NCBI GenBank assembly: GCA_021777225.1
Contig: JAJYDQ010000019.1
Span: 1-56,553, forward strand
Source of the DNA: Deltaproteobacteria bacterium
GTDB lineage: Bacteria > Desulfobacterota > Desulfomonilia > Desulfomonilales > Desulfomonilaceae
Direction of reading: 5' to 3'
DNA length: 56,553 bases
This document shows positions 9,542 through 54,827 of this stretch, in pieces. A model generated the notes under the pieces. That model was not told where the DNA came from. It worked only from the letters and a program-made list of their open reading frames with translations, and did no database searches. The position numbers and the translations under genes are program-made. Each line of letters begins with the position of its first letter. Positions within the stretch are counted from its first letter, which is position 1.

Positions 9542-10026
9542 TGACTAAAATTAATCTAAATAGGCTGGATCCGCAATTCAAGAACAGGGTTGCGGAACAA
9601 CCCGGAGGAGAAGGTCTGAAAGCTTGTTTTGCATGTAAAGCCTGTACTGCCGCCTGCCCGATTCAGCCCCTGGACAAGCGCTATGATCCCAGAAAGATCA
9701 TCCGGATGGTCCTTCTCGGAATGAAAGACCAAGTTCTCGGCAGCGATTTCATCTGGTTGTGTTCGTCCTGTTATAGTTGTCAGGAAGTTTGTCCGCAAAA
9801 TGTACGTTTCACAGAGGTTATGTACGCCATAAAGAACCTGGCTGCTCAGGAGGCGTGCATTCCACCAGGATTGATGGCGCAACGGTCTCTCCTGAGAAAA
9901 CATGGAAGACTCTATGAGGTTGGAGAATTCGAAAACGAGAAACGTCTCAAATTTGGGCTGCCTCCAATCATAGAACACCCTGAAGATTTTGAAAAATTGC
10001 TGCCGGATCAATCTGTAGGCGTATGA
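9541..10026 (+). CDS. hdrC: Heterodisulfide reductase subunit C-like protein
   Basis: 161-residue soluble electron-transfer protein with two [4Fe-4S] motifs, CFACKACTAACP near residue 30 and CSSCYSCQEVCP near residue 75. The helical spacing and the length fit HdrC. No membrane segment is present, which separates it from QmoC and DsrM. It should carry electrons between the HdrA/QmoB-like pair and HdrB in the cytoplasm. The start overlaps the previous stop by one base (TAATG), so translation is likely coupled. HdrB follows after 56 bases. Confidence 0.88.
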   Translation: MTKINLNRLDPQFKNRVAEQPGGEGLKACFACKACTAACPIQPLDKRYDPRKIIRMVLLGMKDQVLGSDFIWLCSSCYSCQEVCPQNVRFTEVMYAIKNLAAQEACIPPGLMAQRSLLRKHGRLYEVGEFENEKRLKFGLPPIIEHPEDFEKLLPDQSVGV

Positions 10027-10082
10027 TTGGGTTAATACGGTTAAAATTTGGATTTTTAATAGTTTTCAACAGGTAAATTTTC

Positions 10083-17798: not shown

Positions 17799-20087
17799 TT
17801 AAGCTTTGTTTATCTTGATTTTCACTGGGAACTGGCCTGAAAATTCCCTAAAGTTCACGCCTGCGGACCTCGGTTTATCTCCCCGAGATTTCAATTCGTC
17901 GATTACATTCGTTGAGGCCCCGGATCCCTTGTAACCGAATCCCTTCGCTATAGCGACTACCCCAGGTTTTATGCCTGGTGATACCTGCGCTTTGATACGG
18001 GCTGAAAAATTACCGTCGAACGTCTGGATAAAAATATTGTCTCCCTGTTTAATGTTTCGTTTAGACGCGTCTGCAGGATTGATCACCAGACTATTTTCAG
18101 GAAGCGTTTCGAGAAGCCATGAATTCACACCGGATCTGGGAGATCGATGGAACGGCAAAGTGTACGCTACCAGTACTAGGTCCTTTTCGTCCTTTTTGTT
18201 CGGCTGTGGGTTGACAGACCATGTCTCTTTACTTTCTATTTTAACAGCCACAGGTTGAATAGGAACAGCTTTTACTTCAGAAGATGGAAAAATCCCACCC
18301 CGCTCAATAATGTTGTCAACCTGGTGTCTAGAAACTTGATCGAGGCCATAGTATTGACGGTCAATATAACTGGCTGCGCTTGAAAAGACCTTTTCATAAA
18401 ACTGCCACGAGTTTAGCCCTTTACCGTTTTTATCAGGTAAAAACTCTTTCAATCCCACTGAATTCCCTAGCTGGATAAGAATATCTTCCATTATCAAATT
18501 GTCCGGCAAAAACGGAAAATAAAGTCCAGATTTAGGATCGAGCCCGCCAACGACCGGTGACCTGACACCAAATCCTGGTCCAGCGCAAGATGGCGGTAAC
18601 GAGCATACGTCCCATCTCTCAAGGTAGGTGGTATCTGGGAGAATATAATCCGCGAAAGCGGCCGATTCTGTAATAGTGCGATCTATTGCTACAAATAAAG
18701 GATTAGCCTTTTTATCGGAAAGCATCTTGGCCATTTCCTTTGGGCTATCATAAACCGGATCCGCCTCCCACATTATTAAGCCACGATTCTCTGGAGGCAA
18801 AGGAATGGCCTCGAACTTTGGCCCACTTTGTCCAGGAATTGAGATTCTCAAATGCTGTAGCATTTCCTCATTGAGGCTCAATAAACCACCTGAACCCGGG
18901 GTTGACCCCACCATCAAATTCAATGTCAGAATTAACCGTGCTGTCTGTTCTCCATCAGGCTGAGCCAGAATGCTGCTCCCACAAAGAGCGGCGCACTTTG
19001 GGCCTGCCTGTGTCATCATTTTTGCTATCTTGAAGGCAATTTGGGATTCGACACCGCAACAAGACGCCAATTCCTCGAAAGAATACTTTTTAGTGATTTT
19101 TTCCAATTCGGCGTCACGTTGCTTCAAAGCCTCGCCATGTTTTTCGAATAGGGCCTTTGCGATCGCCAAAGCAAACATGTCATCGGCGCCTGGAACAATC
19201 GGTATCCAATGATCAGCTTTGGAGGAAGAAGTTGAAACTCTGGGATCAACGACCATCCAGGACATGCACGATGATTTTAGCCTTGCGTCAGCAATTTGAC
19301 GGGCTATTGATACTAGCGGTCGCCCGGAATCCAGAGGAGTTGAGCCAAAACCCAATAAGAACGATACGTTACGATAGTCAGCGTCTAAAGGCCCGTACCC
19401 CGTCCCAAAGATTGATTCCACTGATTGACGTTCTTTAGCCTCTAAAAGGATTTCATCAGTACGCGCAAAAGAGGCTCCCGGAAACGCGGAAACAAATCTT
19501 TCCAGAAAAAAGAGAGCGCCCCAATCTATTTTGCCTGCTAACAAAGTCAGGCCTTGTCCTGAAGTCTTCAGAGTCTTTAGGCCATCAATATTGCCTTCGC
19601 CGAAAAGGTTACCACCTTCGCTGATTTCCTTGAAAGCTTGTTGCCACGAAACGGCTTGCCATTTTCGTGACCCACGAGGACCAATGCGTTTGAGCGGTTT
19701 GAGGACCCTGAAGGGATCATAAAGTGTCTGTATGCCGCTTGAACCGATGGCGCAAACGGAAGCCCCTACCTTAGACGCCTTATCCAACGGGGTTTCAAAG
19801 GTCAAGGGATCACCTTTGGAAATGGGGTGATAGGGATTCCCGCCGATTTTTACGAGAGTTCCTTGAGCGATTCTACAACTGATGCCACAATTCCCGGAAC
19901 AGAGCGAACAAATAGAATATCTGGTATCTACACCCAAGGTAGTCTCAATAACATCGACTGAAGGCGCTCCCTTTATATATTTCGGGACCAATGTTTCCTT
20001 CTCGAAAAGGGAACAACCGGCAAACAGCGATGCTCCTCCCATCAAGGAAGCGATTCTTATGAAATCTCTACGAGTAATTTTTGACAT
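17799..20087 (-). CDS. Molybdopterin-oxidoreductase-family protein, QrcB/PsrA-like, Tat lipoprotein
   Basis: 762 residues, exported. The N-terminus has a Tat motif (TRRDFIRIAS) and a lipobox (LFAGC, Cys near residue 25), so it should be folded before export and lipid-anchored on the periplasmic side. A [4Fe-4S] site follows (CSLCSGNCGISC near residue 60 with a fourth Cys in GASVC), then the family link LYDPFRVLKPLKRIG. The later fold is that of the DMSO reductase superfamily (VVDPRVSTSSSKADHW, ILPDTTYLERWDV, HRSPRSGVNSW). I cannot find the usual Cys, Sec, Ser or Asp molybdenum-ligand motif where PsrA has it, as in QrcB and ActB, so a structural or electron-path role is possible. It is the last gene of the large operon, 21 bases after the NrfD-like gene. 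Confidence 0.82.
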   Translation of the reverse strand: MSKITRRDFIRIASLMGGASLFAGCSLFEKETLVPKYIKGAPSVDVIETTLGVDTRYSICSLCSGNCGISCRIAQGTLVKIGGNPYHPISKGDPLTFETPLDKASKVGASVCAIGSSGIQTLYDPFRVLKPLKRIGPRGSRKWQAVSWQQAFKEISEGGNLFGEGNIDGLKTLKTSGQGLTLLAGKIDWGALFFLERFVSAFPGASFARTDEILLEAKERQSVESIFGTGYGPLDADYRNVSFLLGFGSTPLDSGRPLVSIARQIADARLKSSCMSWMVVDPRVSTSSSKADHWIPIVPGADDMFALAIAKALFEKHGEALKQRDAELEKITKKYSFEELASCCGVESQIAFKIAKMMTQAGPKCAALCGSSILAQPDGEQTARLILTLNLMVGSTPGSGGLLSLNEEMLQHLRISIPGQSGPKFEAIPLPPENRGLIMWEADPVYDSPKEMAKMLSDKKANPLFVAIDRTITESAAFADYILPDTTYLERWDVCSLPPSCAGPGFGVRSPVVGGLDPKSGLYFPFLPDNLIMEDILIQLGNSVGLKEFLPDKNGKGLNSWQFYEKVFSSAASYIDRQYYGLDQVSRHQVDNIIERGGIFPSSEVKAVPIQPVAVKIESKETWSVNPQPNKKDEKDLVLVAYTLPFHRSPRSGVNSWLLETLPENSLVINPADASKRNIKQGDNIFIQTFDGNFSARIKAQVSPGIKPGVVAIAKGFGYKGSGASTNVIDELKSRGDKPRSAGVNFREFSGQFPVKIKINKA

Positions 20088-20108
20088 AATAACTTTTCAG
20101 AGCAGCCT

Positions 20109-20999
20109 CTAACTCAAGGGGATGTCAAAGCCGATGAAAACAACCGAATAACGCATTAGAAAAACACCACAAATTATCAATATTGACGCAAATGATAACC
20201 ACATCTTGTCCTTGCCCGTTCTGGGGTAGATAAGAATTGCCAAGGGCACTAGCATTCCTGCAAAGATTTCTCCCCACAAATAAAATTTCTCGTGGAGCGC
20301 CAACAATATTGAGGCATGCCCATCCGCGTTCGATACAAGAAGGGTTAACCAGAAACTCCCTGTCCAAAAAAGGTCCGCCAGCAATATTCCTATCATCATT
20401 AGCCGCAAGCTTTTATAAAGATCCAACTCCAGTTTTTCGGTGCGGAAACGATCCATTATGAGTGCTACGATAACCAGAAGCGCTATTCCTGATAAAAGGG
20501 CTGAAGTGAGAAAGAAACCAGGCATTAAAGCCGAATGCCACCACGCTCTCGCCCTTACTAGCGCAAATGCGAATCCAGTATATGCGTGTACAAAAATGGC
20601 CAGCGGAACAGTCATCGTCCCTAGAATTTTGGTAACGCGATCACTTTTTACAAAAATGAAATAGATGTAGATTAGGTTGGCGATCGGATAAAGAGTCAGT
20701 AGCCAAGACCCGTATGATAGCGCTGACGTAGGATTAAAATATTCTGGAACCAAGGTGTGCCAAAATCGCAACGGTTGTTGCAGATCGAATATCAGACAAG
20801 CCGGGGCTAGTAAAAGCAGAACAAAGGAAATGATTGCAGCAGGAAGGGCCATTGGCTTAAAACGCTTGATACCGAAAACCGTTGAGAGGGTCGAAAGAAT
20901 GAATGAACCGGCGCTTAATCCTGTAAAATAGAAGTAAAGCGGAATAAAAACTTTCCAGGGAACTTCGTGAGGCACATTGTAAAGAACAGTGACTTCCAT
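20109..20999 (-). CDS. NrfD/PsrC-family integral membrane quinone-interacting subunit
   Basis: 296 residues, about eight membrane helices. Family text is visible at the N-terminus (PWKVFIPLYFYFTGLSAGSF) and in the middle (VHAYTGFAFALVRARAWWHS, and LLALHEKFYLWGEIFAGML). NrfD-type subunits (PsrC, QrcD, ActC) bind a quinone and pass electrons through a partner ferredoxin-like subunit; some are proposed to translocate protons. Here it sits between an NrfC-like Fe-S subunit (9 bases upstream) and the molybdopterin-family subunit (21 bases downstream), the normal composition of a Psr/Qrc-type complex. Menaquinone is the likely partner given the organism type (inference). Confidence 0.87.
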   Translation of the reverse strand: MEVTVLYNVPHEVPWKVFIPLYFYFTGLSAGSFILSTLSTVFGIKRFKPMALPAAIISFVLLLLAPACLIFDLQQPLRFWHTLVPEYFNPTSALSYGSWLLTLYPIANLIYIYFIFVKSDRVTKILGTMTVPLAIFVHAYTGFAFALVRARAWWHSALMPGFFLTSALLSGIALLVIVALIMDRFRTEKLELDLYKSLRLMMIGILLADLFWTGSFWLTLLVSNADGHASILLALHEKFYLWGEIFAGMLVPLAILIYPRTGKDKMWLSFASILIICGVFLMRYSVVFIGFDIPLS

Positions 21000-21008
21000 T
21001 TGCTATTT

Positions 21009-21734
21009 CTATTCCTGATTCTTCCAATAGGATGCTGTTGGACTGGGGATACTTTTCTTGTAATTGACAATGGCTTCTTCAAAATCTTCCGAGAACAAGA
21101 TTCTTCCTTTTAGAGCGTGGTCCGGCTGAATATAGTAAACTTTGGGTTTTGTTCCGAGTTCGGGTTTAATTACCGACGTAGGAGTAGTGGCTAACACGCG
21201 GGATATTTCAGACGCTGGATCATCAATGTCTCCAAATATTAATGCTCTTGAAAGACACGCTTCAACACACGCCGGATTCAGGCCGTTTTCAATTCGTGTG
21301 GAACAAAAATCACATTTATCCGCCGTATGCCTAATCGGATTAAAAAACCTGGCATCGTAGGGACAGGCTGCAATACACATTCCGCAGCCAATGCACTTAC
21401 CGTAGTACATCACCACGACACCATCTTCTGGTCTCCTCACGGTAGCTTGAACCGGGCAAACCTGAACGCAGGGCGGCGAATCACACTGGTTGCAAAGTCG
21501 TCGCAAAAACATGTTGGTTACATTCGGGAAAGTCCCCTTTTGAATTCCTTTGACCCATGAACGCCAGTAACCCAAGGGTACGTTATTTTCACTTTTACAG
21601 GCCACAGTACAACTATGGCATCCGATGCAGCGTCTCTGGTCTACAACCATTGCCCAGTGTTTGGGTTTGGCGTCAGACTTTACAAGAGGACTTGCTTCCT
21701 GTTGAAGGGTGTTTTGAATTTCAGTTTGATTCAT
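21009..21734 (-). CDS. NrfC/PsrB/QrcC-like four-cluster ferredoxin subunit
   Basis: 241 residues with four cysteine groups typical of the family: CIGCHSCTVACKSEN, CNQCDSPPCVQVCP, CIGCGMCIAACPYDARF, and CDFCSTRIENGLNPACVEACL. These should bind four cubane clusters linking the NrfD-like membrane subunit to the molybdopterin-family subunit. No Tat or Sec signal is seen at its N-terminus, so export would need to ride with the Tat-bearing partner, as known for several complexes of this class; a cytoplasmic location is the alternative. Its ATG overlaps the stop of the upstream cytochrome gene by four bases, so the two are translationally coupled. Confidence 0.9.
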   Translation of the reverse strand: MNQTEIQNTLQQEASPLVKSDAKPKHWAMVVDQRRCIGCHSCTVACKSENNVPLGYWRSWVKGIQKGTFPNVTNMFLRRLCNQCDSPPCVQVCPVQATVRRPEDGVVVMYYGKCIGCGMCIAACPYDARFFNPIRHTADKCDFCSTRIENGLNPACVEACLSRALIFGDIDDPASEISRVLATTPTSVIKPELGTKPKVYYIQPDHALKGRILFSEDFEEAIVNYKKSIPSPTASYWKNQE

Positions 21735-22273
21735 TTATTTTTATGGCAGCCGAGGCATTCAAATCTACTGAAAGATTCTTTGCCGTCATGACACGAGCCC
21801 GTTGCGCATGTAGCGCACGCTCTAGGTACTTCGTAATCTACTCTGGCTTTTTCATCCTCCGATACCGTTCCAGGCACGAAAAGCGTGGAAGCCATTTTTC
21901 CAATGTGGACCTTGACTGGGGGTGAATCCCTTAAGGCCCTTAATACAAAAGTTCCATAATGTTGGGCAGCGAACAAACCATCATGGCAGGTTTTACAATC
22001 TTTGTATTTTCCATTTTTAAACCACATGTGGGTATAATGACGAAAAACTATTGGACCTGGCGAGCCTTGGGCGTTAAATGAAACGTTTCCTCCTCCAAAA
22101 ACGCTCGATAGCGTTAATATTGCGAACAATACCCCAGACGCTATGAGCAAGGCCAGAATAATCCCACAGAAGAGGGCCTGCCGCCTCCAATAAGGGGACT
22201 GATTCCTCAGCTTAGTCAAGTAACTCAAAAAGGCTGAAAAAGGCCTTTGTTCTGTTGATGAATCTGACGCCAT
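21731..22273 (-). CDS. Membrane-anchored c-type cytochrome with about three hemes
   Basis: 180 residues. After a basic N-terminal stretch comes one membrane segment near residues 33 to 58 (LFCGIILALLIASGVLFAIL), then a periplasmic domain resembling small c7/c3-type cytochromes. FRHYTH supplies candidate distal histidines. Heme motifs are CKTCH near residue 93, a CX4CH form in CATGSCH near residue 157, and CLGCH close to the end. It takes the place of QrcA in the module that follows, though QrcA normally has six hemes. Expected role is to accept or deliver electrons between periplasmic cytochromes and the QrcB/C/D-like subunits. It starts seven bases after the flavoprotein gene ends. Confidence 0.8.
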   Translation of the reverse strand: MASDSSTEQRPFSAFLSYLTKLRNQSPYWRRQALFCGIILALLIASGVLFAILTLSSVFGGGNVSFNAQGSPGPIVFRHYTHMWFKNGKYKDCKTCHDGLFAAQHYGTFVLRALRDSPPVKVHIGKMASTLFVPGTVSEDEKARVDYEVPRACATCATGSCHDGKESFSRFECLGCHKNK

Positions 22274-22280
22274 GAAAATT

Positions 22281-23960
22281 TTATCTCAAAGATCCAATAT
22301 ACGTTGTTGTCAACTGTCGTTTTCTAACCTCAGGGTTCGCATAATCCGGCAAAACCATCGGGGAAACCCTATCCGTAACTATACCTGTTGCTTCAAGCTC
22401 TTTGTGATATTGACGGACATGGTCAACACTGAGCTTGCCAATTTCGGTTCTTTCATTCACAAATTTACCGGCAGATTCGCCGGCTAATCGACCAAACACG
22501 GTGATATCGAGGAGTGAGTTGCCCATAAGTCGATTAGCCCCATGAACCCCGCCGCCTACTTCACCTGCGACAAAAAATCCTGGAACACTTGTATATCCAT
22601 CGGGTTTGTATTCCAGTCCGCCATTTTGATAGTGAAGCGTCGGATATACCAACATCGGGAGTTTAGAAATATCTATCCCGTAACGTTTGAAAAGAATGAA
22701 TTTAGCCGGGAATTCGCGTTCAACCGTTCCAATGCCTTCCAACATGTCTATCATCGGAGAATCCAGCCAAACTCCAAATTTCCCCTTTTGTCCGGGCACA
22801 GGGATCCCTTTTCGAACCTTTTCGCATTCACGAATGATACTGGAAGATTCAATATCACGTGGCTCCCGCTCGAAAACGAATTGTTCCCCATCGATATTAA
22901 CAAGGTTTGCTCCGGCGCCGCGAACTTTCTCAGTAATAAGCAATCCTTCGGACTGCTCAGGGAATACCGCTCCCGTAGGATGATATTGAGTCGCATGCAG
23001 GAATCTTACCTTGACACCCATCCGGTATCCTATGACCAGTCCATCACCAGTAGCGCCATAGTGGTTGGTTGTCATGAATTTCTGCATGTGGAGGCGACCT
23101 GAACCACCTGTCGCCATTACTACCGCCTTTGCTTTAATCAAAAAGTATTCTTCTGTTTCGAGGTTAAAGAGCACTGCGCCGGAACAAAATCCCTTGTCAT
23201 CGAGGAGCAACTCAACTGCCGGAGAAAACTCAAGAACTCCTATGTTCTTGATTCGGTTTCTGGCTTCATCCCTGAGAGTCCTCATGATTTCCGCGCCGGT
23301 CATGTCCCCTGCATAATGCATTCTCTTTCTGCATGTCCCAGCGCCATGAAGTGTGAACATTTTTCCGTCAGGCCACTTATTAAACATGCAACCAAGGCTT
23401 TCAAGCCAACCTATTGCTTTAGGCGCCTCTGAGACCATGGTCTTGACAAGTAACGGATCATTTTCGAAATGACCGCCGCCCATGACGTCCAAATAGTGAT
23501 AATATGGAGAGTCTTTCCAGCTCTTGGTCGCCGCCTGGATACCGCCTTCAGCCATCATGGTGTTTGCGTCGCCATGCCGCAACTTGGTCGCTATTATCAC
23601 CTTGGCCCCAGCCTCTTCAGCCAGGAGCGCCGCCGCAGTCCCTGCTCCCCCGCCGCCAATGACCAACACATCAGTTTCATAGTGAACTTCGTCCAAATCA
23701 ATTTTATCTGGATCGATTCGGCTCTTGGCTTCAAATTGATCAGCTATTTCCTGCGCTACCGAATAGCCTTTACTCGGACCGACCTTTAGTTCACGAAGAG
23801 CCCCGGCCCGATAATCAGGATGATATTTCTCCAGTCTATCTTTTCTCTGCTCCAGAGTTAGTGCGGGAAATTCCTCGCCTGCTTTCTTACGATTGACGCG
23901 TAGTTGTCTTGTTTTTTCAACTTTCTTGATAAGTTCCAGTAAATCAGGGGTATATCCCAT
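22281..23960 (-). CDS. Succinate dehydrogenase/fumarate reductase-like flavoprotein subunit
   Basis: 559 residues from the ATG at 23960 (GGTGGAGG seven bases upstream). It has an N-terminal extension of about 90 residues before the Rossmann site (DVLVIGGGGAGTAAALLAEE). Dicarboxylate-site residues of SdhA/FrdA appear conserved: HPTG in ATQYHPTG, Arg in PRDIESS, His in PTLHYQNGG, and Arg in HGANRLMGNSLLD. The histidine that carries covalent FAD in SdhA/FrdA (SHT before the AxGG motif) is replaced: here the text is ANTMMAEGG, so FAD is probably non-covalent. No signal peptide, so cytoplasmic. The partner Fe-S subunit is encoded 71 bases upstream. Succinate or fumarate is likely but a related dicarboxylate is possible. 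Confidence 0.85.
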   Translation of the reverse strand: MGYTPDLLELIKKVEKTRQLRVNRKKAGEEFPALTLEQRKDRLEKYHPDYRAGALRELKVGPSKGYSVAQEIADQFEAKSRIDPDKIDLDEVHYETDVLVIGGGGAGTAAALLAEEAGAKVIIATKLRHGDANTMMAEGGIQAATKSWKDSPYYHYLDVMGGGHFENDPLLVKTMVSEAPKAIGWLESLGCMFNKWPDGKMFTLHGAGTCRKRMHYAGDMTGAEIMRTLRDEARNRIKNIGVLEFSPAVELLLDDKGFCSGAVLFNLETEEYFLIKAKAVVMATGGSGRLHMQKFMTTNHYGATGDGLVIGYRMGVKVRFLHATQYHPTGAVFPEQSEGLLITEKVRGAGANLVNIDGEQFVFEREPRDIESSSIIRECEKVRKGIPVPGQKGKFGVWLDSPMIDMLEGIGTVEREFPAKFILFKRYGIDISKLPMLVYPTLHYQNGGLEYKPDGYTSVPGFFVAGEVGGGVHGANRLMGNSLLDITVFGRLAGESAGKFVNERTEIGKLSVDHVRQYHKELEATGIVTDRVSPMVLPDYANPEVRKRQLTTTYIGSLR

Positions 23961-24031
23961 AATCGCCTCCACCCAAAAGGCCGCGTGTTTCAAGAGTTAA
24001 TGATTAATTCCAAATAAAATCTCGCTGTTCC

Positions 24032-24811
24032 TTACAAATAGTCCTTTAGGTCCGGGGTCCATTCTTCCGGAGCGGTGTGAGGCTCCATTTGCCGCTCTAC
24101 ATATAGTTTCCTAAGTGTTTCAATGTCAGAATTGATCAATCCATTGATTGGCTCTTCATAACGACCCGTATTGACCCGTTCAATCATTTCTCTGACGTGC
24201 TCCGCCCGAGGCTTGATGTGCTTGCCCGTGATTCTTCGACACATTATCCCGATGTTGTACTGGCCTAATTCCGCAGGACATCGTGCTGCGCAAATACCGC
24301 ACATGACACATGACATGGAAATTTCCGCAGCCTGTTCGATATCGCCGCGGAGCGCCGCTGAAATGTATTCCATAACCGGTATTTCCATAGGACACGACTT
24401 CGTACAAGTGTTGCATCCCATACATTTGGCCAATTCAGGGTAATATTTGAGGACGGTCTGTGCATCAGGTTTTAGATCATCAAGATTGTAAATCGCCCGA
24501 TTGGCGGGAAAGAAAGGAATCATAGTAAGGTACATGTTGGCCTGAACCACCGTCTGACATGCCAAGCCAACGTTGATCTTGGCGGTCCCCGGCAATCTGT
24601 AGACCGTAGCGCAAGCTCCGCAGATACCACCACGACAACCGCAACCTCTTATCAATTGGTAACCTGCGTATTCAAAAGCCTTTTGAATTGTCAAAGTACT
24701 GGGCACATCATATTCCTTGCCCATTATAAAAATTGGTATCAAATCGGTTCGAACAGACTCGTCATTCAAGGTTTCCATCTGTTCTGTCGACTGTTGAGCG
24801 ACCGCAGGCAT
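24032..24811 (-). CDS. SdhB/FrdB-like iron-sulfur subunit
   Basis: 259 residues. The N-terminal plant-ferredoxin domain has CRGGICGAC and a later ACQT for a [2Fe-2S] cluster. The C-terminal alpha-helical domain has CMGCNTCTKSCP and CVMCGICAARCP, two four-cysteine motifs where many SdhB proteins have one [4Fe-4S] and one [3Fe-4S]. It passes electrons between the flavoprotein and a membrane partner. No classical SdhC/D cytochrome b gene is present; the nearest candidates are the tail-anchored Fe-S protein and the heptaheme cytochrome immediately upstream in the operon. The C-terminus (EPHTAPEEWTPDLKDYL) is a short extra tail. Confidence 0.88.
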   Translation of the reverse strand: MPAVAQQSTEQMETLNDESVRTDLIPIFIMGKEYDVPSTLTIQKAFEYAGYQLIRGCGCRGGICGACATVYRLPGTAKINVGLACQTVVQANMYLTMIPFFPANRAIYNLDDLKPDAQTVLKYYPELAKCMGCNTCTKSCPMEIPVMEYISAALRGDIEQAAEISMSCVMCGICAARCPAELGQYNIGIMCRRITGKHIKPRAEHVREMIERVNTGRYEEPINGLINSDIETLRKLYVERQMEPHTAPEEWTPDLKDYL

Positions 24812-24853
24812 CTTCTAAATCCTTTCTCAATATTACACTGAACTCATGTTAAA

Positions 24854-25333
24854 TCATCGAGCAATAAAAATACCTATCACAATCCCAATTATCAGGGCGA
24901 CCAATCCCATAAAATAATTATCAAGCGCTGTTATTCTTGGCGCTGGTTGAATTGTTTCAGGCACTACCTCGTCAACTATGTAATCCTTGTATGCGGTATC
25001 CACCTGAGGGCAGGCCAAGACACAAGAGTAACATTGCTCACAATCTTCACCTACACATGATTCCAGAGCGAACGAAGTTCGCTGGGCGGTTTTATCGAAG
25101 CGTTTCGGGTCCTTTCGCAATACCGGACAGGAATCAATGCAATTACCACAAGCCAGGCACGCTTTGTCACCTGTGACATCGGAATCCGGATCAGGTATGA
25201 AAAGCCTGTGGTAAGGCTCCATACCCTTTGAAAGTAACCGAAAACGGGCCACAGGAGGTTCCTTAGTGTTTAGGATTGTATTAGCAACGTCACGGTTAAT
25301 GCTATCTTTTGATTTATCTCTTGCTGTTGGCAT
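24854..25333 (-). CDS. Ferredoxin-type Fe-S protein with C-terminal membrane anchor
   Basis: 159 residues. Two cysteine groups are visible, CLACGNCIDSCP near residue 56 and CEQCYSCVLACP near residue 98, the second preceded by an extra CVGEDC. One membrane helix closes the protein (NYFMGLVALIIGIVIGIFIAR). The Fe-S domain should face the cytoplasm, tying the SdhB-like subunit to the membrane. The ATG overlaps the end of the heptaheme cytochrome gene by 20 bases, with GGAG just ahead. I do not recognise a named family beyond the HdrC-like 4Fe-4S class. Confidence 0.78.
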   Translation of the reverse strand: MPTARDKSKDSINRDVANTILNTKEPPVARFRLLSKGMEPYHRLFIPDPDSDVTGDKACLACGNCIDSCPVLRKDPKRFDKTAQRTSFALESCVGEDCEQCYSCVLACPQVDTAYKDYIVDEVVPETIQPAPRITALDNYFMGLVALIIGIVIGIFIAR

Positions 25334-26345
25334 TTCCGCCGCTCCAATTCATTCTGGAATTGGGAAAATTTAATTCTAAACGATTTTCCGGCAGACCATA
25401 ATTTTGGCCTACGCTGTCGAAATTTGAAGTTAAAGAGCGCTCATCTTCAGAAGAATCATTCGATGATAACAATTCTCTGGATGTTTGAGATTTTCGGTCT
25501 TGCAAATAGCGGTTGAAGTAGTCGAGAGTCATGACCGGATGACACTTGAGGCAAATTTTGTAATCATTGCCCTCCCGACAGTCCGCAGCAAATATCCTGG
25601 TTTTATAATGAATCTGACCGTTATGGCAGCGTCTGCAAGATCTCTCGTTAGGTATGGCCACCATCCATCTAGGATTTTGAGACAGTGAATTCCAGGCTTG
25701 CCGGCGCGCCTCCACGAATTGGGGTTTGCTCAATGGTAAAAGATGGCCATTTTCGTATTCGTGTGACGCGAAGGCATGGCACGAATCACAAGCTAGATGG
25801 TTAACTTCCGCGTAATTGACTTCCTTGTCAGCTTTGCCATCGTCCTTATTCTTGAAACGTTCGTGACACTTTGCACAAGTGTCATCACGAGCCATAACGT
25901 GCTTTCTGTGGTCCATTACCAGCCCAATTTGTTTTAGTCCTTTAGGCAAATCCTTCAGGTAAACTTCTTTCCTGTATATGGCGGCGTAATGGCAATACTG
26001 ACAATTGTCACTCGGCACGCGCGTCTCGCGAAACAACCCGGTGGTCTGAGGCTGACGTGGATCAATCTGGGGGATCAGATATGTCACTGCGTGCAACAAT
26101 GATCGTCCTCTGGACAAAACGGAATTTTGAGGACTTCCCTCGATGTGGCAGTCTGCGCATGCTATCAACTCATGCGAAAAACCCTTATTTTTAATTTTCA
26201 ACTGATTGGTCATCCAACTAACGTAATCCGCCTGACGCTGGTGACAGGCTTTACATGAAAAACTTCTAATGGAAACCTCACCTGCTGCGGAAGCAAGAAC
26301 CACAACAAAAAAACCTATTAATAAATATCCATAACCACCACGCAT
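25314..26345 (-). CDS. Membrane-anchored heptaheme c-type cytochrome (NapC/NirT-like start)
   Basis: 343 residues. An uncleaved N-terminal membrane segment (YLLIGFFVVVLASAAG) is followed by seven CXXCH motifs: CKACH, CADCH, CQYCH, CAKCH, CDSCH, CRRCH and CLKCH. The first two hemes and the anchor resemble NapC/NrfH quinol dehydrogenases. The extra hemes and the hydrophilic C-terminal tail of about 70 residues are beyond that family. It should take electrons from or give them to the quinone pool and spread them along the periplasmic side. Start and upstream stop overlap by one base (TGATG), so it is coupled to the FMN-domain gene. Confidence 0.85.
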   Translation of the reverse strand: MRGGYGYLLIGFFVVVLASAAGEVSIRSFSCKACHQRQADYVSWMTNQLKIKNKGFSHELIACADCHIEGSPQNSVLSRGRSLLHAVTYLIPQIDPRQPQTTGLFRETRVPSDNCQYCHYAAIYRKEVYLKDLPKGLKQIGLVMDHRKHVMARDDTCAKCHERFKNKDDGKADKEVNYAEVNHLACDSCHAFASHEYENGHLLPLSKPQFVEARRQAWNSLSQNPRWMVAIPNERSCRRCHNGQIHYKTRIFAADCREGNDYKICLKCHPVMTLDYFNRYLQDRKSQTSRELLSSNDSSEDERSLTSNFDSVGQNYGLPENRLELNFPNSRMNWSGGNANSKR

Positions 26346-27373
26346 CAGGCGGTATCTCTCTTGTTTTCAGTCGATGTTGAGCGTTTCTTTTCCATAACTG
26401 CCTGAAAAGCCGCTGAAATAACCAATGGTCCCGAATTTCCAATAGGACATTTAGCGGCGCACCGACCGCATCCTACACAATATTTGGACAACTCCATGAC
26501 TCGTTCATAATTCCCAAGTCTCGTCAAAAGCACCAACCCCATAGGCATTTGAACGCCTTCGACCTCCTTGACCGGACAAACTCCAACACAAGAGGCGCAA
26601 TTGTAACAGTTGATGGAGCGCCCTGTACCAGGGGTGAGCATCGACTGAAACGCATATTCAAACACCATGAAAACAGCGAATAGAATTGCCAGGGCGTTCA
26701 ATGTAACGCGATTTGGGGCTTGGCCAATGAAAAGGCTAAGAAAGGTCCTTGAGAACCAATCGTAATGAGGAAAATCCGGAATCCCTTTTGATAAAGCATC
26801 CTGAATAGCGTTGACATATCCGGTAAGTGTCTGTCTGGACCCGCGAAGCATCTCAGGTTGCCCTGGAACGAACAAACGTCCTCGGGCTAATAGTCCCTGC
26901 TTGAACATTTTTATCTGATTGTCCAGCACAGAAATCAAGTCGGGATAAGCCAGAGTTTCAATACCTATTATTTTATGGTCCTTGACTTGCACTTCTACCT
27001 TGATAGGGCCGCGATAACCTTGCCCTTCTCCGATGTATTTGCCATCCGTGACCTGATAAATTCCGTCACCCCACGGGGTCATGCCGAATCGAAGCTCATC
27101 AACACTTTTTACATTAACAAATGTCACGATATATCCGATCAGCAAAAAGGCTATAAAAACCAAAAGATAAACAATATTGGGGTTTTGATTAAAACGATAT
27201 TCTTTCCTCCAAATCGAGCCTAAAGCCAGAATAACGGCCACCAATAGAATAAAACGGCTTGATGGAAATATAGACGCTACGACGATTGCATACGCGACTA
27301 ACCTAACGCCTCTGGTTTTCAGCGCGTTCCAAAAAAAGTTTACAGGGTCATGCAATAGATCTGACAACGTCAT
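26345..27373 (-). CDS. Membrane protein with periplasmic FMN-binding domain and cytoplasmic 2x[4Fe-4S]
   Basis: 342 residues from the ATG at 27373 (AAGGAA eight bases ahead). Two to three N-terminal membrane segments are followed by an FMN-binding domain of the RnfG/NqrC/NosR type near residues 95 to 195 (DGIYQVTDGKYIGEG, then IKVEVQVKDHKIIGIE, then GSRQTLTGYVNAI where the family attaches FMN to a threonine). Another membrane helix (LAILFAVFMVFEYAF) and two [4Fe-4S] motifs follow (CYNCASCVGVCP and CVGCGRCAAKCP). The layout resembles a compact NosR. It should carry electrons across the membrane between a cytoplasmic Fe-S partner and periplasmic FMN. It overlaps the upstream Fe-S gene by 26 bases. 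Confidence 0.82.
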   Translation of the reverse strand: MTLSDLLHDPVNFFWNALKTRGVRLVAYAIVVASIFPSSRFILLVAVILALGSIWRKEYRFNQNPNIVYLLVFIAFLLIGYIVTFVNVKSVDELRFGMTPWGDGIYQVTDGKYIGEGQGYRGPIKVEVQVKDHKIIGIETLAYPDLISVLDNQIKMFKQGLLARGRLFVPGQPEMLRGSRQTLTGYVNAIQDALSKGIPDFPHYDWFSRTFLSLFIGQAPNRVTLNALAILFAVFMVFEYAFQSMLTPGTGRSINCYNCASCVGVCPVKEVEGVQMPMGLVLLTRLGNYERVMELSKYCVGCGRCAAKCPIGNSGPLVISAAFQAVMEKKRSTSTENKRDTA

Positions 27374-27890
27374 CAATAAATTCCTTACCAACCAGACCCT
27401 TTTCGAGACCTCTTGTTAAAGATTCGCGCGGAACAATTCCAGCCACTATGGCGCGTCTCGTTTCTTGTTGCATTACTTCAAACATCTTGGGAAGTGGCAA
27501 ATATTGGACACAGTAACTCTGGCAATTGCCACACCTTATACACTTCAATCCACCATTTCGGATAAATCGATCATAATCCAGCACTCTACCAGCTACCACG
27601 AGTTCGGCTTGCAATGATATTCCAACCGGACATCTATCCTGCGTCGCATAGCACGCTCGACATTCATAACAATAAATCGTAGCCGGATTTCCTCGAAGCA
27701 AAGGCTTAATTATTGTGGCCAGTAGAGCTGAGACGACACCAAACAAAGCCACTCTATCGAGATTGAGGGTCCAACCACGGTCTTTCAGATTGCTGAAAAA
27801 CTGGTATCGATGAATTCCTGGAAGTATCAACGGCTGATTAGAGTCCGACCGCTTTTCACCAATTTTAGGGAGCTTTTCCGTATCCGACAT
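27348..27890 (-). CDS. Membrane-associated 2x[4Fe-4S] protein
   Basis: 180 residues. A polar N-terminus is followed by one probable membrane segment (VALFGVVSALLATIIKPLL), then two cysteine groups: CYECRACYATQDRCP near residue 74, with a longer spacing before the fourth cysteine, and CIRCGNCQSYC near residue 116. The end is helical and similar to HdrC-type proteins. It overlaps and is coupled to the FMN-domain gene, so the two likely form one membrane unit that moves electrons from the cytoplasm to the FMN. Not assigned to a named family. Confidence 0.75.
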   Translation of the reverse strand: MSDTEKLPKIGEKRSDSNQPLILPGIHRYQFFSNLKDRGWTLNLDRVALFGVVSALLATIIKPLLRGNPATIYCYECRACYATQDRCPVGISLQAELVVAGRVLDYDRFIRNGGLKCIRCGNCQSYCVQYLPLPKMFEVMQQETRRAIVAGIVPRESLTRGLEKGLVGKEFIDDVVRSIA

Positions 27891-27920
27891 CCAAATTCCT
27901 GTTTTTTACAAGCAATCAAA

Positions 27921-28073
27921 TTAATGCGGCAACATGGCCGACATCAGTAAACCAGCTATAAGCCCGCCCAATGCGCCCTGGAAAAGTTCTTTAGGTGAAG
28001 TCATTTCCAACGCATAGGCAATGATCAACCCGGATAAAACTCCTACAAAAGCAAATATGATCCACATCAACAC
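27921..28073 (-). CDS. Small two-helix membrane protein (50 residues)
   Basis: A short gene from GTG at 28073 (AGTAGGA eight bases ahead; an ATG two codons later is possible) to the stop at 27921. It encodes two hydrophobic segments, WIIFAFVGVLSGLIIAYAL and GALGGLIAGLLMSAML, joined by MTSPKELFQ. The second half closely resembles the C-terminal hairpin of the 568-residue protein encoded upstream (FQGALGGLIAG here, CQGVLGGIIAA there, both with an AxAL segment before it). It therefore looks like a free-standing copy of that hairpin and a likely subunit of the same membrane assembly. Overlooked by usual length cut-offs. Confidence 0.65.
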   Translation of the reverse strand: MLMWIIFAFVGVLSGLIIAYALEMTSPKELFQGALGGLIAGLLMSAMLPH

Positions 28074-28154
28074 TTAAAATATCCTACTCTCAGGCTACAT
28101 CCACATTTATGACGGAACCGGACACCTTCAAATACCACTGAAAAATTTACATAA

Positions 28155-29861
28155 TCATGGTGTCGGTCCAGAAAGTGTGGCGGTTAGCCTCTTCGACAAC
28201 GTCTTAGGCGCCATTAGCCCTATCAGGGCGGCAGCGATTATGCCACCCAAAACTCCCTGACAAATCTTTGTAGTGTCCAACTCAAATAGGGCAAACGCCA
28301 GAATGCCCCCTCCAATCCCACCGCTGAATAAAAAACCCAACAATTGAACAAAAAAATTGCGGGAAACATTGGGATTGAAAATTCGAGATCCCAAAAGTAT
28401 GAAAGTTATATTTACACCTGCTATTACTAGAGCGAATGCCGCTATCATATAAATGTTTCGTGCGAACCCAGGGTCCGACGGTTGAAATACCGACAGATTC
28501 AGGAATTTCATGAAAATAGCCGCCATAGGGGCCATAACGGCCATTGAAGCGAAAGTGTAAGCCCCTTTAATAAAACCGGTTTCAGCTCGCATCGTCCCTT
28601 CTCCCATCATTCCACCGCCGCCAAGAGGGGAAGGGCCGCAAGAAGTCGTCGCGTTAATTATGTACGCCGCCATGACAATAGCCAGTTGAGACCAACTAAG
28701 AAAATTAAATTGAGCTGGACCGAACAAGTAAAGTGTGGGTACCAAAGCCGCGGTCAATATTCGAGCGCACGACAGAGGAAGGATGGTCTGAAACTGAACA
28801 AAGATTGCTAGCATGCCGGCAACGCCAAGAGCTTTAATTGAAACCAGACTATTCAAGATAGACGCCAACGCTACAAACCCACCAGTTGCGGCTAGCGCTC
28901 CAGCGGCCAGAAACCCTGCGGCCATGGCTGTAACCGGTAAAAGGATTATTCCCTCGAGTAAGTCATTCAAGCGAATTCGACATACCACTATCATGAGTAA
29001 AGCGCCGGCCACCAGGACAGATTGCACCGGCATTTTGCCCAACGGCTGAAATATTGCGATTAGCAGCGACATGACAAATATTGCAAGTGCGATAAAACCT
29101 TGAATAGGAGCCTTTATCCGGATTTCCGACCCACCGCCTTGTGTCGCAATACCCGCTGGGGCTTCTCTAAGAGCAACATCATTAGGATAGAGCTTCTGGC
29201 TAATGAACTTGAGAAACAGAGCGACTACCGCTGTTCCAAGCATTAAAGCAAATGCCTGAGGGGCCCTTAAAATTCCGTCGGACGCTGTTGGGAAAAAACT
29301 CCCCAGGAACCCTTCCGCAATCTGACCTACGCCTCCAATAGGTGAAGGACCACAGGATCCCATTGAATTTCTCGTAAAAGCCCCTATCAAGACAATTAGC
29401 TGTGATTTGGTGAGTATTCCGAGACCACCTTCAAAACCGAAAGTAAAAAGCAATGGCAATAAAGCGGCCGCCAGAATTCTACCGCATGGCAATGAGGATA
29501 TTACGGGCAAGTTTATGAGTATGACGAGCGTGCCGACTAGACCGATCGGGCTGCGCCTTAAATAACCAAGAATGGCTTTGAGGGCCTCGAACCCGCCTGA
29601 CGCCTTTAGGCCTCCAGCAAGGAACAACCCGGTGAGCAAGGCTGTTATGGGATGTAGAATAATTCCGCCCAGGAACTCGTTGGGCATCAACGCCACGGAA
29701 TTCCATCCATAGGCGGTAAAACGGAACAATCCGCCAACAATCAAACACAGAATCGTGGACAACACGAGAACAGTCTGAACAGGAGTTCTTATGTAGCCAA
29801 ACAGTGTCAGCAACATTAATCCGAGGAAAATCGCCAAAGTTATATAGCCTAAGAACTCCAA
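28155..29861 (-). CDS. Large membrane protein with internal duplication, carrier-like, family unknown
   Basis: 568 residues, mostly membrane helices (about fourteen). Two halves of about 210 residues are clear repeats. The first has GGIILHPITALLTGLFLAGG, LPCGRILAAALLP and NSMGSCGPSPIGGVGQ; the second has EGIILLPVTAMAAGFLAAG, LSCARILTAALVP and NATTSCGPSPLGGGGM. Such an inverted-repeat-like layout with broken-helix SCGPSP loops is typical of ion or organic-acid carriers, but I cannot assign a family. The C-terminal hairpin (CQGVLGGIIAAALIGLM) recurs as a separate 50-residue protein. The start is TTG at 29861 with GGAG six bases ahead. The position in an electron-transfer operon suggests substrate uptake or ion coupling (inference). 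Confidence 0.75.
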   Translation of the reverse strand: MEFLGYITLAIFLGLMLLTLFGYIRTPVQTVLVLSTILCLIVGGLFRFTAYGWNSVALMPNEFLGGIILHPITALLTGLFLAGGLKASGGFEALKAILGYLRRSPIGLVGTLVILINLPVISSLPCGRILAAALLPLLFTFGFEGGLGILTKSQLIVLIGAFTRNSMGSCGPSPIGGVGQIAEGFLGSFFPTASDGILRAPQAFALMLGTAVVALFLKFISQKLYPNDVALREAPAGIATQGGGSEIRIKAPIQGFIALAIFVMSLLIAIFQPLGKMPVQSVLVAGALLMIVVCRIRLNDLLEGIILLPVTAMAAGFLAAGALAATGGFVALASILNSLVSIKALGVAGMLAIFVQFQTILPLSCARILTAALVPTLYLFGPAQFNFLSWSQLAIVMAAYIINATTSCGPSPLGGGGMMGEGTMRAETGFIKGAYTFASMAVMAPMAAIFMKFLNLSVFQPSDPGFARNIYMIAAFALVIAGVNITFILLGSRIFNPNVSRNFFVQLLGFLFSGGIGGGILAFALFELDTTKICQGVLGGIIAAALIGLMAPKTLSKRLTATLSGPTP

Positions 29862-29921
29862 GAAAAACTCCGCTACGTTAGTCTAAATCAATTGCGCCAA
29901 ATTCACATCCGACGAAAACAG

Positions 29922-30257
29922 TCAGCGGCGCGCGTGAATATTTTCAGAGAAACCGCATTGATTTTTCGATCGGAACCATACAGGGTCAATTGTGTAACCA
30001 TCTGACGAATTGAAAACTTTTACTTCCGAACCCAATTGAATTTTTGCGATGCAGGCGGCGCAATGAGTTAGCTTCGCTGTTACTTCTTCGCCGGACCTCA
30101 ATTTGACCACAGCGGTCCTTATCTCTCCAAGGAAATTTTGTGGTCCCGAATCTTCAACAGATATGATAATTCCCCTTATAGATCGTCGTGCTCGGTATAT
30201 TTCAGCCAGGATAAACACAGCGATAAGAAAAAGAAGAGTTACGTGTTCGACGTTCAT
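29922..30257 (-). CDS. Small membrane-anchored protein, unknown
   Basis: 111 residues. An N-terminal membrane helix (VTLLFLIAVFILAEIY) is followed by a small soluble domain with beta-rich text (IRGIIISVEDSG, TAVVKLRSGEEVTAKL, GSEVKVFNSSDGY), which resembles an OB-fold or SH3-like barrel, and a cysteine pair (HCAAC). It starts 28 bases after the NHL gene and ends about 60 bases before the duplicated membrane protein, so it belongs to the operon. No named family is recognised. Confidence 0.65.
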   Translation of the reverse strand: MNVEHVTLLFLIAVFILAEIYRARRSIRGIIISVEDSGPQNFLGEIRTAVVKLRSGEEVTAKLTHCAACIAKIQLGSEVKVFNSSDGYTIDPVWFRSKNQCGFSENIHARR

Positions 30258-30285
30258 TTATTAAATTTTCCGAAAGTTATAGTTA

Positions 30286-31215
30286 TCAATTTTCTGAAAG
30301 CCGAATTATATGACCCTTACCTGAATCCGCCACAAAAAGAAGCCCATCTTTTTGCGCCACCGACGTAGGTGTTTGGAACAAGCGTAAGTCTGAATGGTCA
30401 ACTTCCCAAACTTTGAGAAGTTTTCCACTATTGTCAAATTTCTGTACTCTCTGATTCCCTGTATCGGCGACTATAACCGAGCCAGAAGTATCCAAAATCA
30501 TACCCTGAGGACTGTTTAACAACCCCGGCGCTCTTCCGTCACCACCGAAACTTCTCTTGAAATTTCCGTCCTTGTCGAAGATTTTCACTAACCCATGTTT
30601 ACTATCGAGCACCAATATTTCCCCATCAGTGTTCGTTTGGCATGCCGTAGGCAATCTGAATTGATTATCTTTATCGCCCAATTCGCCTATGACTGAAACC
30701 AGCCTAAATGAATCAAAGATTTGAATTCGATGGTTTCTTGTATCTGCTACAAGCATTCTATCTCGAGGATCTAAACATACTCCTTGAGGCGTAGCGAACA
30801 ATCCACCAATGGATCCAATCGCGCCGACAATTTTGAAAAGTTTACCCGCCGGATCAAAAATTTGAATTCGGCAGTTGTTTGAATCAACTACGTAAACAAA
30901 ATCGTTAGAATCTGAAATAATTCCCTTAGGATAATTAAATGAACCTGGAGCCGAACCAGGGATTCCAAATGAATCCAAGACCTTCAACGAGCTATTCAGT
31001 CTAAATACACGATATAGGGAGGGATCAGTTACAAGTATATCCCCGGCAGAATTGAAACATAAAGAAAAAGGCGCATTGAGAGCTGATTTGTCACCCGCGA
31101 AGTGCGGCAAGGACGCTGTTTGTTTCTTGTCCGAAAACGCATTTGACGTTCCGAACGGAAGAAAGGAGATTGCGCCGGCTATTCCTATGGATTTTATGAA
31201 ATCACGCCGCTTCAT
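30286..31215 (-). CDS. Tat-exported NHL-repeat (six-bladed propeller) protein
   Basis: 309 residues from the ATG at 31215, which directly begins a Tat signal (MKRRDFIKSIGIAGAISF). A nine-residue upstream extension from a TTG has no support. The mature part consists of NHL repeats, for example GSFNYPKGIISDSNDFVYVV, NNCRIQIFDPAG, ATPQGVCLDPRDRMLVADT, NHRIQIFDS, NSPQGMILDTSGSVIVADT and NQRVQKFDNSG. NHL propellers bind proteins or ligands rather than catalyse redox reactions in most cases. It is the first gene of the large operon and could organise the periplasmic face of the complex. Tat export suggests folding or cofactor loading in the cytoplasm. Confidence 0.85.
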   Translation of the reverse strand: MKRRDFIKSIGIAGAISFLPFGTSNAFSDKKQTASLPHFAGDKSALNAPFSLCFNSAGDILVTDPSLYRVFRLNSSLKVLDSFGIPGSAPGSFNYPKGIISDSNDFVYVVDSNNCRIQIFDPAGKLFKIVGAIGSIGGLFATPQGVCLDPRDRMLVADTRNHRIQIFDSFRLVSVIGELGDKDNQFRLPTACQTNTDGEILVLDSKHGLVKIFDKDGNFKRSFGGDGRAPGLLNSPQGMILDTSGSVIVADTGNQRVQKFDNSGKLLKVWEVDHSDLRLFQTPTSVAQKDGLLFVADSGKGHIIRLSEN

Positions 31216-31420
31216 GGCGTTATTTAAACTCCTGGATTCCAAAAGGCGCGACTAGACGGCTACCAGTTTCCCCCTGGAATCATTTTCTTAAATGAAAGCA
31301 CCTTAGTCTATAAACAATACATAAAAAAGAACTGCCTGACAAACATTTCTAATCTTTTGGCAGTAGTTCGTCAATTCAAAAGCTCAGCCACCAAAGATTG
31401 CCATATAACAATTTTAGGTC

Positions 31421-46564: not shown

Positions 46565-47869
46565 GTGGATCCTGTGTTTCTGTCCCGTTTACAATTTGCC
46601 GTTGCAACACTGTTTCATTTTATCTTTGTTCCATTGACTTTAGGGCTGAGTATCCTTGTGGCTATAATGGAGACCAGGTATGTGCGGACCGGGAATTCTG
46701 AATATAAGAAAATGACTAAATTCTGGGGACATATGTTTTTGATCAACTTTGTAGTCGGGGTTGTGACCGGCATAACATTAGAATTTCAATTTGGAACAAA
46801 CTGGGCAAGATATTCAAAATATGTGGGTGATATATTCGGGTCAATATTAGCCATTGAGGCTACTGTGGCATTCTTTTTGGAATCCACTTTTGTAGCCGTA
46901 TGGTTTTTTGGTTGGAACAAATTGAAACCTGGGACCCATGCGATTTGTATGTGGCTTGTGGCGATAGCGTCCAATCTTTCAGCTTTTTGGATTATTGCTG
47001 CGAACGCCTGGATGCAACACCCGGTCGGTTATGAAATACGGGGTGGAAGAGCAGAATTAACTGATTTCCTGGCTGTTATCACTCAATCTTACGCAATAAC
47101 AAATTATCTGCACACAATCTTTGCCGGCTATGTAGTCGCCGGTTTTTTTGTCATGGGAGTCAGCGCCTATCATCTACTAAAGAAAAATGAAATCAGTTTT
47201 TTTACGAAATCATTCAGAATAGCGCTTGTATTCTCTCTAATTTTTTCTATTAGCGAAGTTTTCATGGGCGACATAATTGGAAAGGAAGTGGCCAAATTGC
47301 AGCCTGAGAAGCTCGCTGCTGTGGAATCCCAGTGGGAGACTCAAAAGGGAGCTGATTTCTCGCTTCTCCTAATTCCTGACGAAAAACATGAACGAAACTC
47401 TGTCGAATTATTCAACATCCCAAATTTTTTGAGTTTTCTAGCTAAAGGCGACTGGAACGCGGAAATAAGGGGCCTTAAATCATGGCCTCCAGCCGACAGA
47501 CCTCCAGTGACCGCAGTTTTTGCGTCTTTTAGAATAATGGTCGGCCTAGGTTTTCTCTTTATCCTGCTCACGATAATCGGGTGGTTCAAGAGGAATAGGC
47601 TGGAGTCGAGCCCCATATACTTGAGGATTATGCTCTATTCAATTCCTTTACCATATATTGCGACCCTATTGGGGTGGATTGTCACTGAGGTCGGACGCCA
47701 GCCGTGGATCGTGTACGGTGTGCTCAAGACCGTTGACGCAAGTTCTCCGTTAGCGGGGTCCCAAGTCGCAGTATCACTGGGCGCATTTATCATTTTATAT
47801 TCAGGGCTCGGAGCCATAGCTATCTGGTTGATGGCTCGCCACGCAAAACATGGCCCCGAAACCGTTTGA
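46565..47869 (+). CDS. cydA: Cytochrome bd quinol oxidase subunit I
   Basis: 434 residues, GTG start with GGAG seven bases ahead. Family text: RLQFAVATLFHFIFVPLTLG with the proximal heme histidine, GTNWARYSKYVGDIFGSILA, EATVAFFLESTFVAVW, NAWMQHPVGYEI, and the GRQPW loop (TEVGRQPWIVYG). The periplasmic quinol loop is of the short type. It reduces oxygen at high affinity using quinol and is common in sulfate reducers. CydB follows after 73 bases. Confidence 0.96.
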   Translation: MDPVFLSRLQFAVATLFHFIFVPLTLGLSILVAIMETRYVRTGNSEYKKMTKFWGHMFLINFVVGVVTGITLEFQFGTNWARYSKYVGDIFGSILAIEATVAFFLESTFVAVWFFGWNKLKPGTHAICMWLVAIASNLSAFWIIAANAWMQHPVGYEIRGGRAELTDFLAVITQSYAITNYLHTIFAGYVVAGFFVMGVSAYHLLKKNEISFFTKSFRIALVFSLIFSISEVFMGDIIGKEVAKLQPEKLAAVESQWETQKGADFSLLLIPDEKHERNSVELFNIPNFLSFLAKGDWNAEIRGLKSWPPADRPPVTAVFASFRIMVGLGFLFILLTIIGWFKRNRLESSPIYLRIMLYSIPLPYIATLLGWIVTEVGRQPWIVYGVLKTVDASSPLAGSQVAVSLGAFIILYSGLGAIAIWLMARHAKHGPETV

Positions 47870-47942
47870 CAACAATTGAGATCGTTGATTCGAGTCATCA
47901 ATTTTCAAATTGTAACCGGTTGGATTGAAAGGCAGATTGATC

Positions 47943-52798: not shown

Positions 52799-52799
52799 T

Positions 52800-54776: not shown

Positions 54777-54786
54777 AAACGTCCAA

Positions 54787-54813
54787 CAGATTCATGGACC
54801 GTCCCAGAATCTG
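54787..54813. repeat. Intercistronic hairpin between cyoB and cyoC
   Basis: CAGATTC (54787-54793) pairs with GAATCTG (54807-54813), and GGAC-C-GTCC lies within the loop. It may stabilise or divide the cyo transcript. No T-run follows. Confidence 0.4.
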
Positions 54814-54827
54814 TACCGGAGATCTAA

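Follow-up and report, generated by a model that had tools for sequence, protein, structure and literature searches.

The window analysed here, a 56,553-nucleotide stretch of a Desulfomonilaceae contig belonging to a 4.0-Mb genome (completeness 97.6%), carries a redox operon of about 14 genes (17799–31242) that is found in the same order in several families of Desulfobacterota, Desulfomonilaceae among them. Embedded in this operon is a duplicated membrane protein of 568 residues, which is the subject of this study, followed by a 50-residue protein that resembles its C-terminal end. The genes and features of the operon, in the order in which they are read, are:

30286–31242, minus strand: NHL-repeat beta-propeller protein with a Tat-like signal, first in the conserved order (NHL, E=1.6e-37)
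29922–30257, minus strand: 111-residue membrane-anchored protein with an invariant CxxC, directly upstream of the large gene in both operon types
28155–29861, minus strand: 568-residue duplicated membrane protein (the large protein) with an IT-superfamily-like fold, as judged by fold matches, and four invariant Cys; the ORF starts with TTG
28206–28364, minus strand: two-helix hairpin at the C-terminus of the large protein (residues about 500–552), homologous to the 50-residue protein
27921–28073, minus strand: 50-residue two-helix membrane protein, a free copy of that hairpin, with a GTG start; a conserved neighbour
27348–27890, minus strand: 180-residue membrane-anchored ferredoxin with two 4Fe-4S motifs (Fer4_8)
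26345–27391, minus strand: 348-residue NosR/RnfG-like protein with TM helices, a degenerate FMN_bind domain (E=0.017) and two 4Fe-4S motifs
25314–26345, minus strand: 343-residue membrane-anchored heptahaem cytochrome c with an NrfH/NapC-like start (seven CxxCH in 7/7 homologues; NrfH-like, E=2e-8)
24854–25333, minus strand: 159-residue HdrC-like 4Fe-4S protein with a C-terminal TM helix
24032–24811, minus strand: 259-residue SdhB/TfrB-like iron-sulfur protein (ferredoxin motifs; order conserved)
22281–23993, minus strand: 570-residue SdhA/FrdA/TfrA-like flavoprotein (TfrA, E=2.6e-98, under the equivalog cut-off)
21731–22273, minus strand: 180-residue membrane-anchored protein with two CxxCH, a small c-type cytochrome by motif count (order conserved)
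21009–21734, minus strand: NrfC/TtrB-like 4Fe-4S subunit
20109–20999, minus strand: NrfD/DsrP-like integral membrane subunit
17799–20087, minus strand: molybdopterin oxidoreductase, TtrA/PhsA-like, with a Tat-like signal (order conserved)

We found no published description of this operon. In one relative (genome G051), the molybdoenzyme (L062:3745–6645) and the ferredoxin (L062:13738–14529) each consist of two separate ORFs, a split probably due to frameshifts or assembly errors. Elsewhere in the window, HdrA/HdrB/HdrC-like genes recognized by eye on the plus strand (6672–10958) appear to form a separate heterodisulfide-reductase-like cluster, and genes resembling cytochrome bd oxidase and haem-copper oxidase (46565–48968 and 51872–55445, also by eye) are present in what is a lineage of anaerobic sulfate reducers.

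The large protein is built from two homologous halves. Residues 1–228 and 250–462 align over 204 columns at 40% identity (profile comparison with hhalign; E=2e-46, probability 100%), and each half contains one copy of an SCGPSP loop (169–174 and 407–412) and of a CxRIL segment (C126-G-R-I-L and C365-A-R-I-L), as had been proposed from the sequence of this single protein. Relatives sharing 64–96% identity occur in Desulfomonile/Desulfomonilaceae and related MAGs, and the family is encoded by 17 of the 18 Desulfomonilaceae genomes searched, by none of 24 genomes from the other family of the same class and by 9 of 395 genomes in a sample of the phylum, with further representatives in the order of G218; no relatives were detected in the viral contigs and plasmids searched. 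Two divergent homologues share only 33–34% identity with it, one (L036) from a 6.5-Mb genome that is nearly closed and belongs to the family of the source genome and the other (L053), which lacks the C-terminal extension, from genome G285. Neither single sequences nor profiles of the large protein matched a family in Pfam, NCBIfam, PHROGs or the sequences of the PDB.

The C-terminal hairpin lies outside the two repeats. When the large-protein profile is searched against whole genomes, the 50-residue gene is the sole other match in all 17 Desulfomonilaceae genomes that encode the large gene (one of which also has a paralogue), with E-values of 6e-5 to 5e-8 in these genomes and as low as 1.2e-9 in relatives from other families; between the single sequences from the source genome, E is 0.003. 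The small gene has a pN/pS of 0.21 over 20 copies and is hence a real gene under purifying selection. At all main-type loci checked whose sequence extends far enough, it lies next to the large gene: the contig of L052 ends 155 bp downstream of the large gene, in L010 the small gene is intact at a distance of about 430 bp, and the copy in L018 has an ATG start and follows the large gene directly. The original prediction that the last hairpin recurs as a separate small protein, a split or duplicated module kept beside the large gene, is thus borne out in Desulfomonilaceae and in other families alike. In the main operon type the small gene constantly accompanies the large one; at the two divergent loci of the second type, described below, none was seen. 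The 50-residue protein probably packs against the large protein as a small structural subunit. The contig of L018, deposited as "Pseudomonadota bacterium", carries the main operon type and encodes a small protein identical letter for letter to that of L070, a genome locus from the order of G218 in the phylum of the source genome, and the deposited name may be wrong.

Among 25 nonredundant homologues, including those at 33% identity, Cys is invariant at just four positions (C126, C170, C365 and C408), which are arranged symmetrically, two per repeat. The Cys at positions 39 and 294 are not invariant and are lost in divergent members. Also invariant are R128, R367, N165, E183, E421, Q29 and Q280, of which E183 and E421 sit in EG motifs. 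The four Cys fall in two motifs that occur once in each repeat, motif A (PCGR in repeat 1 and [SA]C[AS]R in repeat 2, the latter being PCGR in divergent members) and motif B (SC[GS]xS[PR]):

29478–29489, minus strand: motif A of repeat 1, P125-C126-G-R128, at the predicted tip of hairpin 1 (C126 and R128 in 25/25; C-x9-P spacing)
29340–29357, minus strand: motif B of repeat 1, S169-C170-GPSP, in the predicted unwound loop L5ab (C170 in 25/25; DASS loop register in the global profile alignment)
28761–28778, minus strand: motif A of repeat 2, PLSC365AR, at the predicted tip of hairpin 2 (C365 and R367 in 25/25; hhalign with the DASS hairpin-2 tip)
28626–28643, minus strand: motif B of repeat 2, SC408GPSP, in the predicted unwound loop L10ab (C408 in 25/25)

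SCGPSP and CxRIL were read at the outset as signatures of the repeats; what that reading missed is that their Cys are the only four invariant Cys of the family.

The fold of the large protein was addressed with structure prediction and profile comparison. AlphaFold models from an alignment of 15 close homologues are of low confidence and not readable in detail, both for the full-length protein (mean pLDDT 50.5) and for a core without the C-terminal extension, which did not raise confidence (mean pLDDT 44.9). The models nevertheless retrieve a consistent set of carriers. ArsB (10tp, probability 0.97) and AtDiT1 are among the top fold matches of the full-length model, and VIA-align pairs it with NaDC1 (Z 11.3, rmsd 4.4, 242 residues aligned), AtDiT1 (Z 11.0, rmsd 4.5, 223 aligned) and other DASS chains. 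For the core-only model, six DASS chains rank first (VcINDY, probability 0.87), and nearly all of the top 22 rows in VIA-align are DASS, MtrF and TRAP chains. Helical models can reach a Z of about 13 by chance in VIA-align, and the weight therefore rests on the consistency of the lists and on the sequence motifs. GPCR-like, MATE and CLC rows in Foldseek were discarded as low-probability matches between helical bundles.

The motifs carry features of the IT superfamily. In both repeats the tip of the predicted hairpin has a C-x9-P spacing equal to that of SN-x8-P and DN-x8-P in the phylum's own DASS and CitMHS proteins, and it is followed by the GG/GP loop of a predicted unwound helix. In a global alignment of profiles with DASS (E 2.3e-4, versus 0.53 for a reversed control, at a probability of 1–20%), the four Cys motifs are in register with hairpin 1, L5ab, hairpin 2 and L10ab, and their spacing (126/170/365/408) is similar to that in VcINDY (about 151/199/378/420, where we take about 199 to be the position of L5ab). 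The SNT motifs of DASS proteins are missing at both tips, where PCGR and SCAR, SCSR, ACSR or PCGR stand instead, and 11 members gave no match to PF00939 or PF03600 (DASS/CitMHS) even at E<=10, with hhalign probabilities of at most 20%. In VcINDY, for which N151, N378 and A420 serve as the reference positions, the first hairpin tip and L5ab form the Na1 site, the second hairpin and L10ab form Na2, and the substrate is held between them (PMC9098524). Taken together with the motif spacing, the low-confidence models make it likely that the large protein has an IT-superfamily fold and is a divergent relative of elevator carriers. Since the Cys motifs would lie on the same clamshell elements as in VcINDY, the four invariant Cys most likely face the site where IT carriers hold their ions and cargo. 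The protein is thus duplicated and carrier-like, as first supposed; that no known transporter family fits it holds for sequence (Pfam, NCBIfam and PDB), but the fold comparisons point consistently to the IT superfamily.

The neighbours of the large gene are dominated by electron-transfer proteins. The 111-residue protein encoded directly upstream has no match in Pfam or NCBIfam; its CxxC is invariant in nine aligned homologues. In five of six homologues it has 0–1 Lys/Arg ahead of the TM helix and 3–4 behind it (L059 is ambiguous), and by the positive-inside rule its CxxC domain is probably cytoplasmic. In the 180-residue ferredoxin, positive charge tends to be higher ahead of the TM helix, a bias that would place its clusters on the outer side of the membrane, but no Tat signal was seen that would go with such a location. 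The 348-residue NosR-like protein reads RGA-x where the flavinylation motif is (S/T)GAT, so that the flavinylated Thr is not conserved, and its flavin, if it has any, may be noncovalent. We therefore rejected it as a covalent-FMN partner of the RnfG/NosR kind, given the missing Thr and an FMN_bind match of only E=0.017.

Divergent homologues of the large protein occur in a second type of cluster, each with a pair of membrane-anchored proteins that resemble reductive dehalogenases (pairs at L060:5973–8972 and L059:9750–13087; 144–154 bits against the RDH model, whose cut-off is 160). These clusters also encode a prenyltransferase-fold/DUF4430 protein (DUF4430 being, we assume, a transcobalamin-like domain), a DsbD_2-type protein (PF13386 in L060, a look-alike in L059) and more ferredoxins, and may be regarded as candidate organohalide-respiration clusters of unusual make-up. 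The order CxxC protein, large-protein homologue, membrane ferredoxin is kept in them. The CxxC protein, the four-Cys protein and the ferredoxin are hence a constant unit that occurs with two different enzymes, which argues for electron transfer over the transport of one enzyme's substrate.

We hypothesize that in the large protein the IT fold has been adapted into an electron conduit across the membrane, with a redox centre of four Cys inside the bilayer, a tentative proposal to which we give slightly less than an even chance and in which the fold is likely and the cofactor and function are the conjectural parts. Because its invariant Cys are placed at the cargo site of a carrier and its constant neighbours are electron-transfer proteins, the large protein probably moves electrons and not solutes; an electron role in either form, cluster or dithiol, is on balance probable. 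In each clamshell, formed by the hairpin tip and the unwound helix of one repeat, two invariant Cys would replace the usual Ser-Asn-Thr chemistry, and the four together would hold a [2Fe-2S] cluster as in RnfA/E and NqrD/E or, alternatively, act as two redox dithiols as in CcdA. Electrons would enter from one side, with the cytoplasmic CxxC protein as partner, and be passed to the membrane ferredoxin and then to the NosR-like and haem subunits, the hand-over possibly being achieved by an elevator movement; the cofactor, the electron transfer itself, its direction and any coupling to ion movement are what we infer. That a single cluster is bound by all four Cys ranges from doubtful to as probable as the conduit itself: DASS geometry puts the clamshells on either side of the substrate, so the two Cys pairs may be too distant for one cluster. 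Other points that speak against the proposal are the low confidence of both models, the low profile probabilities with DASS and CitMHS, the lack of a sequence link to RnfA/E and the Thr missing from the NosR-like partner. A literature search returned no report of Fe-S clusters in IT-superfamily proteins. The most specific form of the proposal, a single-chain electron pump or conduit with a four-Cys [2Fe-2S] that is convergent with RnfA/E and NqrD/E and serves a respiratory complex of 14 subunits that is so far undescribed and, in its divergent form, membrane-anchored reductive dehalogenases, is doubtful.

The main rival, which we judge unlikely, is that the protein is an IT transporter whose four-thiolate site binds and translocates soft ligands, either metal(loid)s or sulfur species (arsenite, sulfide or polysulfide, thiosulfate, a metal or part of a cofactor), on behalf of the redox enzymes encoded nearby. 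In its favour, transport is what IT carriers do, and ArsB is among the top fold matches; thiols fit soft ligands, the invariant Arg fits an anion, the operon includes a TtrA/PhsA-like molybdoenzyme and YeeE/TsuA (PF04143) is a precedent for thiosulfate uptake through Cys. The clustering with redox genes would equally fit a transporter that serves them. However, the molybdoenzyme has a Tat-like export signal, which makes import of its substrate unnecessary and therefore disfavours such a role; the reductive-dehalogenase-like clusters combine the same three-protein unit with another enzyme and another substrate; and the ArsB, YeeE and other transporter Pfam models are unmatched. The initial suggestion of a multi-subunit ion or solute channel is not supported: the fold matches are elevator carriers, for which reason we rejected a channel, Cys stand at the substrate-site motifs and the constant partners are redox proteins.

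Two further possibilities differ from the transporter in what the Cys would do. One, distinctly unlikely in our estimate, is a thiol-disulfide conduit in which the dithiols C126/C170 and C365/C408 shuttle reducing equivalents across the membrane from the cytoplasmic CxxC protein, in the manner of CcdA, DsbD or ScsB, so that periplasmic enzymes with haem, Fe-S or corrinoid cofactors could be matured or reactivated. The IT scheme does yield two Cys pairs, one per clamshell, the constant neighbour is an invariant CxxC protein with a cytoplasmic topology, CcdA is itself an elevator-type thiol electron carrier (PMC7329351) and the L060 cluster and, with its look-alike, L059 encode DsbD_2-type proteins. 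That last point cuts both ways, as the function would be doubled in clusters that already encode a DsbD-like protein, and the main operon has no periplasmic thioredoxin-like partner, its nearest constant partners being ferredoxins and haem proteins. The other, which we regard as improbable, is a structural or ion-conducting subunit that has no redox centre of its own, in which the Cys form disulfides and the large and 50-residue proteins together provide a path for ions that is coupled to the redox complex. The invariant E183 and E421 would suit such a path, and multi-subunit redox complexes often have transporter-like ion-pumping subunits, such as the antiporter-like subunits of complex I; yet invariant Cys placed symmetrically at all four central elements exceed any structural need, and the Cys columns 39 and 294 are lost in divergent members.

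If the electron-conduit reading is true, a carrier fold with an RnfA/E-like four-Cys layout would show how a subunit that moves electrons can arise from a transporter, a role not known for the IT fold, and redox-driven alternating access would become directly testable in a single chain. The electron route to reductive dehalogenases in Desulfomonile-type organisms is poorly known, and the present family marks both a conserved respiratory operon and a candidate electron-transfer module for these enzymes.

Among known systems, the IT carriers of the DASS type and their relatives (VcINDY, NaDC1, AtDiT1, CitMHS and ArsB) have two repeats, each of some five TM helices that include an unwound helix and a re-entrant hairpin, a layout also predicted for the large protein, and they share with it a Pro exactly 10 residues on from the hairpin tip. 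Unlike these carriers, the large protein has PCGR/SCAR in place of SNT/DN tips, four invariant Cys, an added C-terminal hairpin with a free 50-residue copy and a location in a redox operon, and it has no match to their sequence families. YeeE/TsuA similarly combines a Cys-based site with an internally symmetric membrane protein, whereas its motifs are different, the large protein does not match the Sulf_transp model (PF04143) and no TusA/YeeD-like CPxP partner accompanies it. CcdA carries reducing equivalents on a Cys pair by an elevator-type mechanism and is an inverted repeat (PMC7329351); the large protein differs from CcdA/DsbD in having four Cys where these have two, over twice their size and a CxxC partner of unknown fold, and it does not match the DsbD or DsbD_2 Pfam families.

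RnfA/RnfE and NqrE/NqrD are duplicated pairs of inverted topology whose four Cys-bearing half-helices surround a [2Fe-2S] cluster, their complex also containing ferredoxin and FMN_bind-like subunits, and they are described as lacking structural homologues, yet as reminiscent of alternating-access symporters (PMC12174285). The large protein shares with them four invariant Cys, two per repeat, whose location in broken helices would follow from the IT assignment. It is unlike them in being one chain instead of two, in being larger than 2 x 6 TM helices, in having a partner without the covalent-FMN motif and in that its cluster is putative. Membership of the RnfA/E family itself was rejected: the large protein has no Pfam match to PF02508, and hhalign against the genome's own RnfA/E, a profile built on two sequences only, gave a probability of 0.2%. 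The description that suits the large protein best is that of a new and deeply divergent branch among the IT-fold proteins, one that may work like RnfA/E or CcdA.
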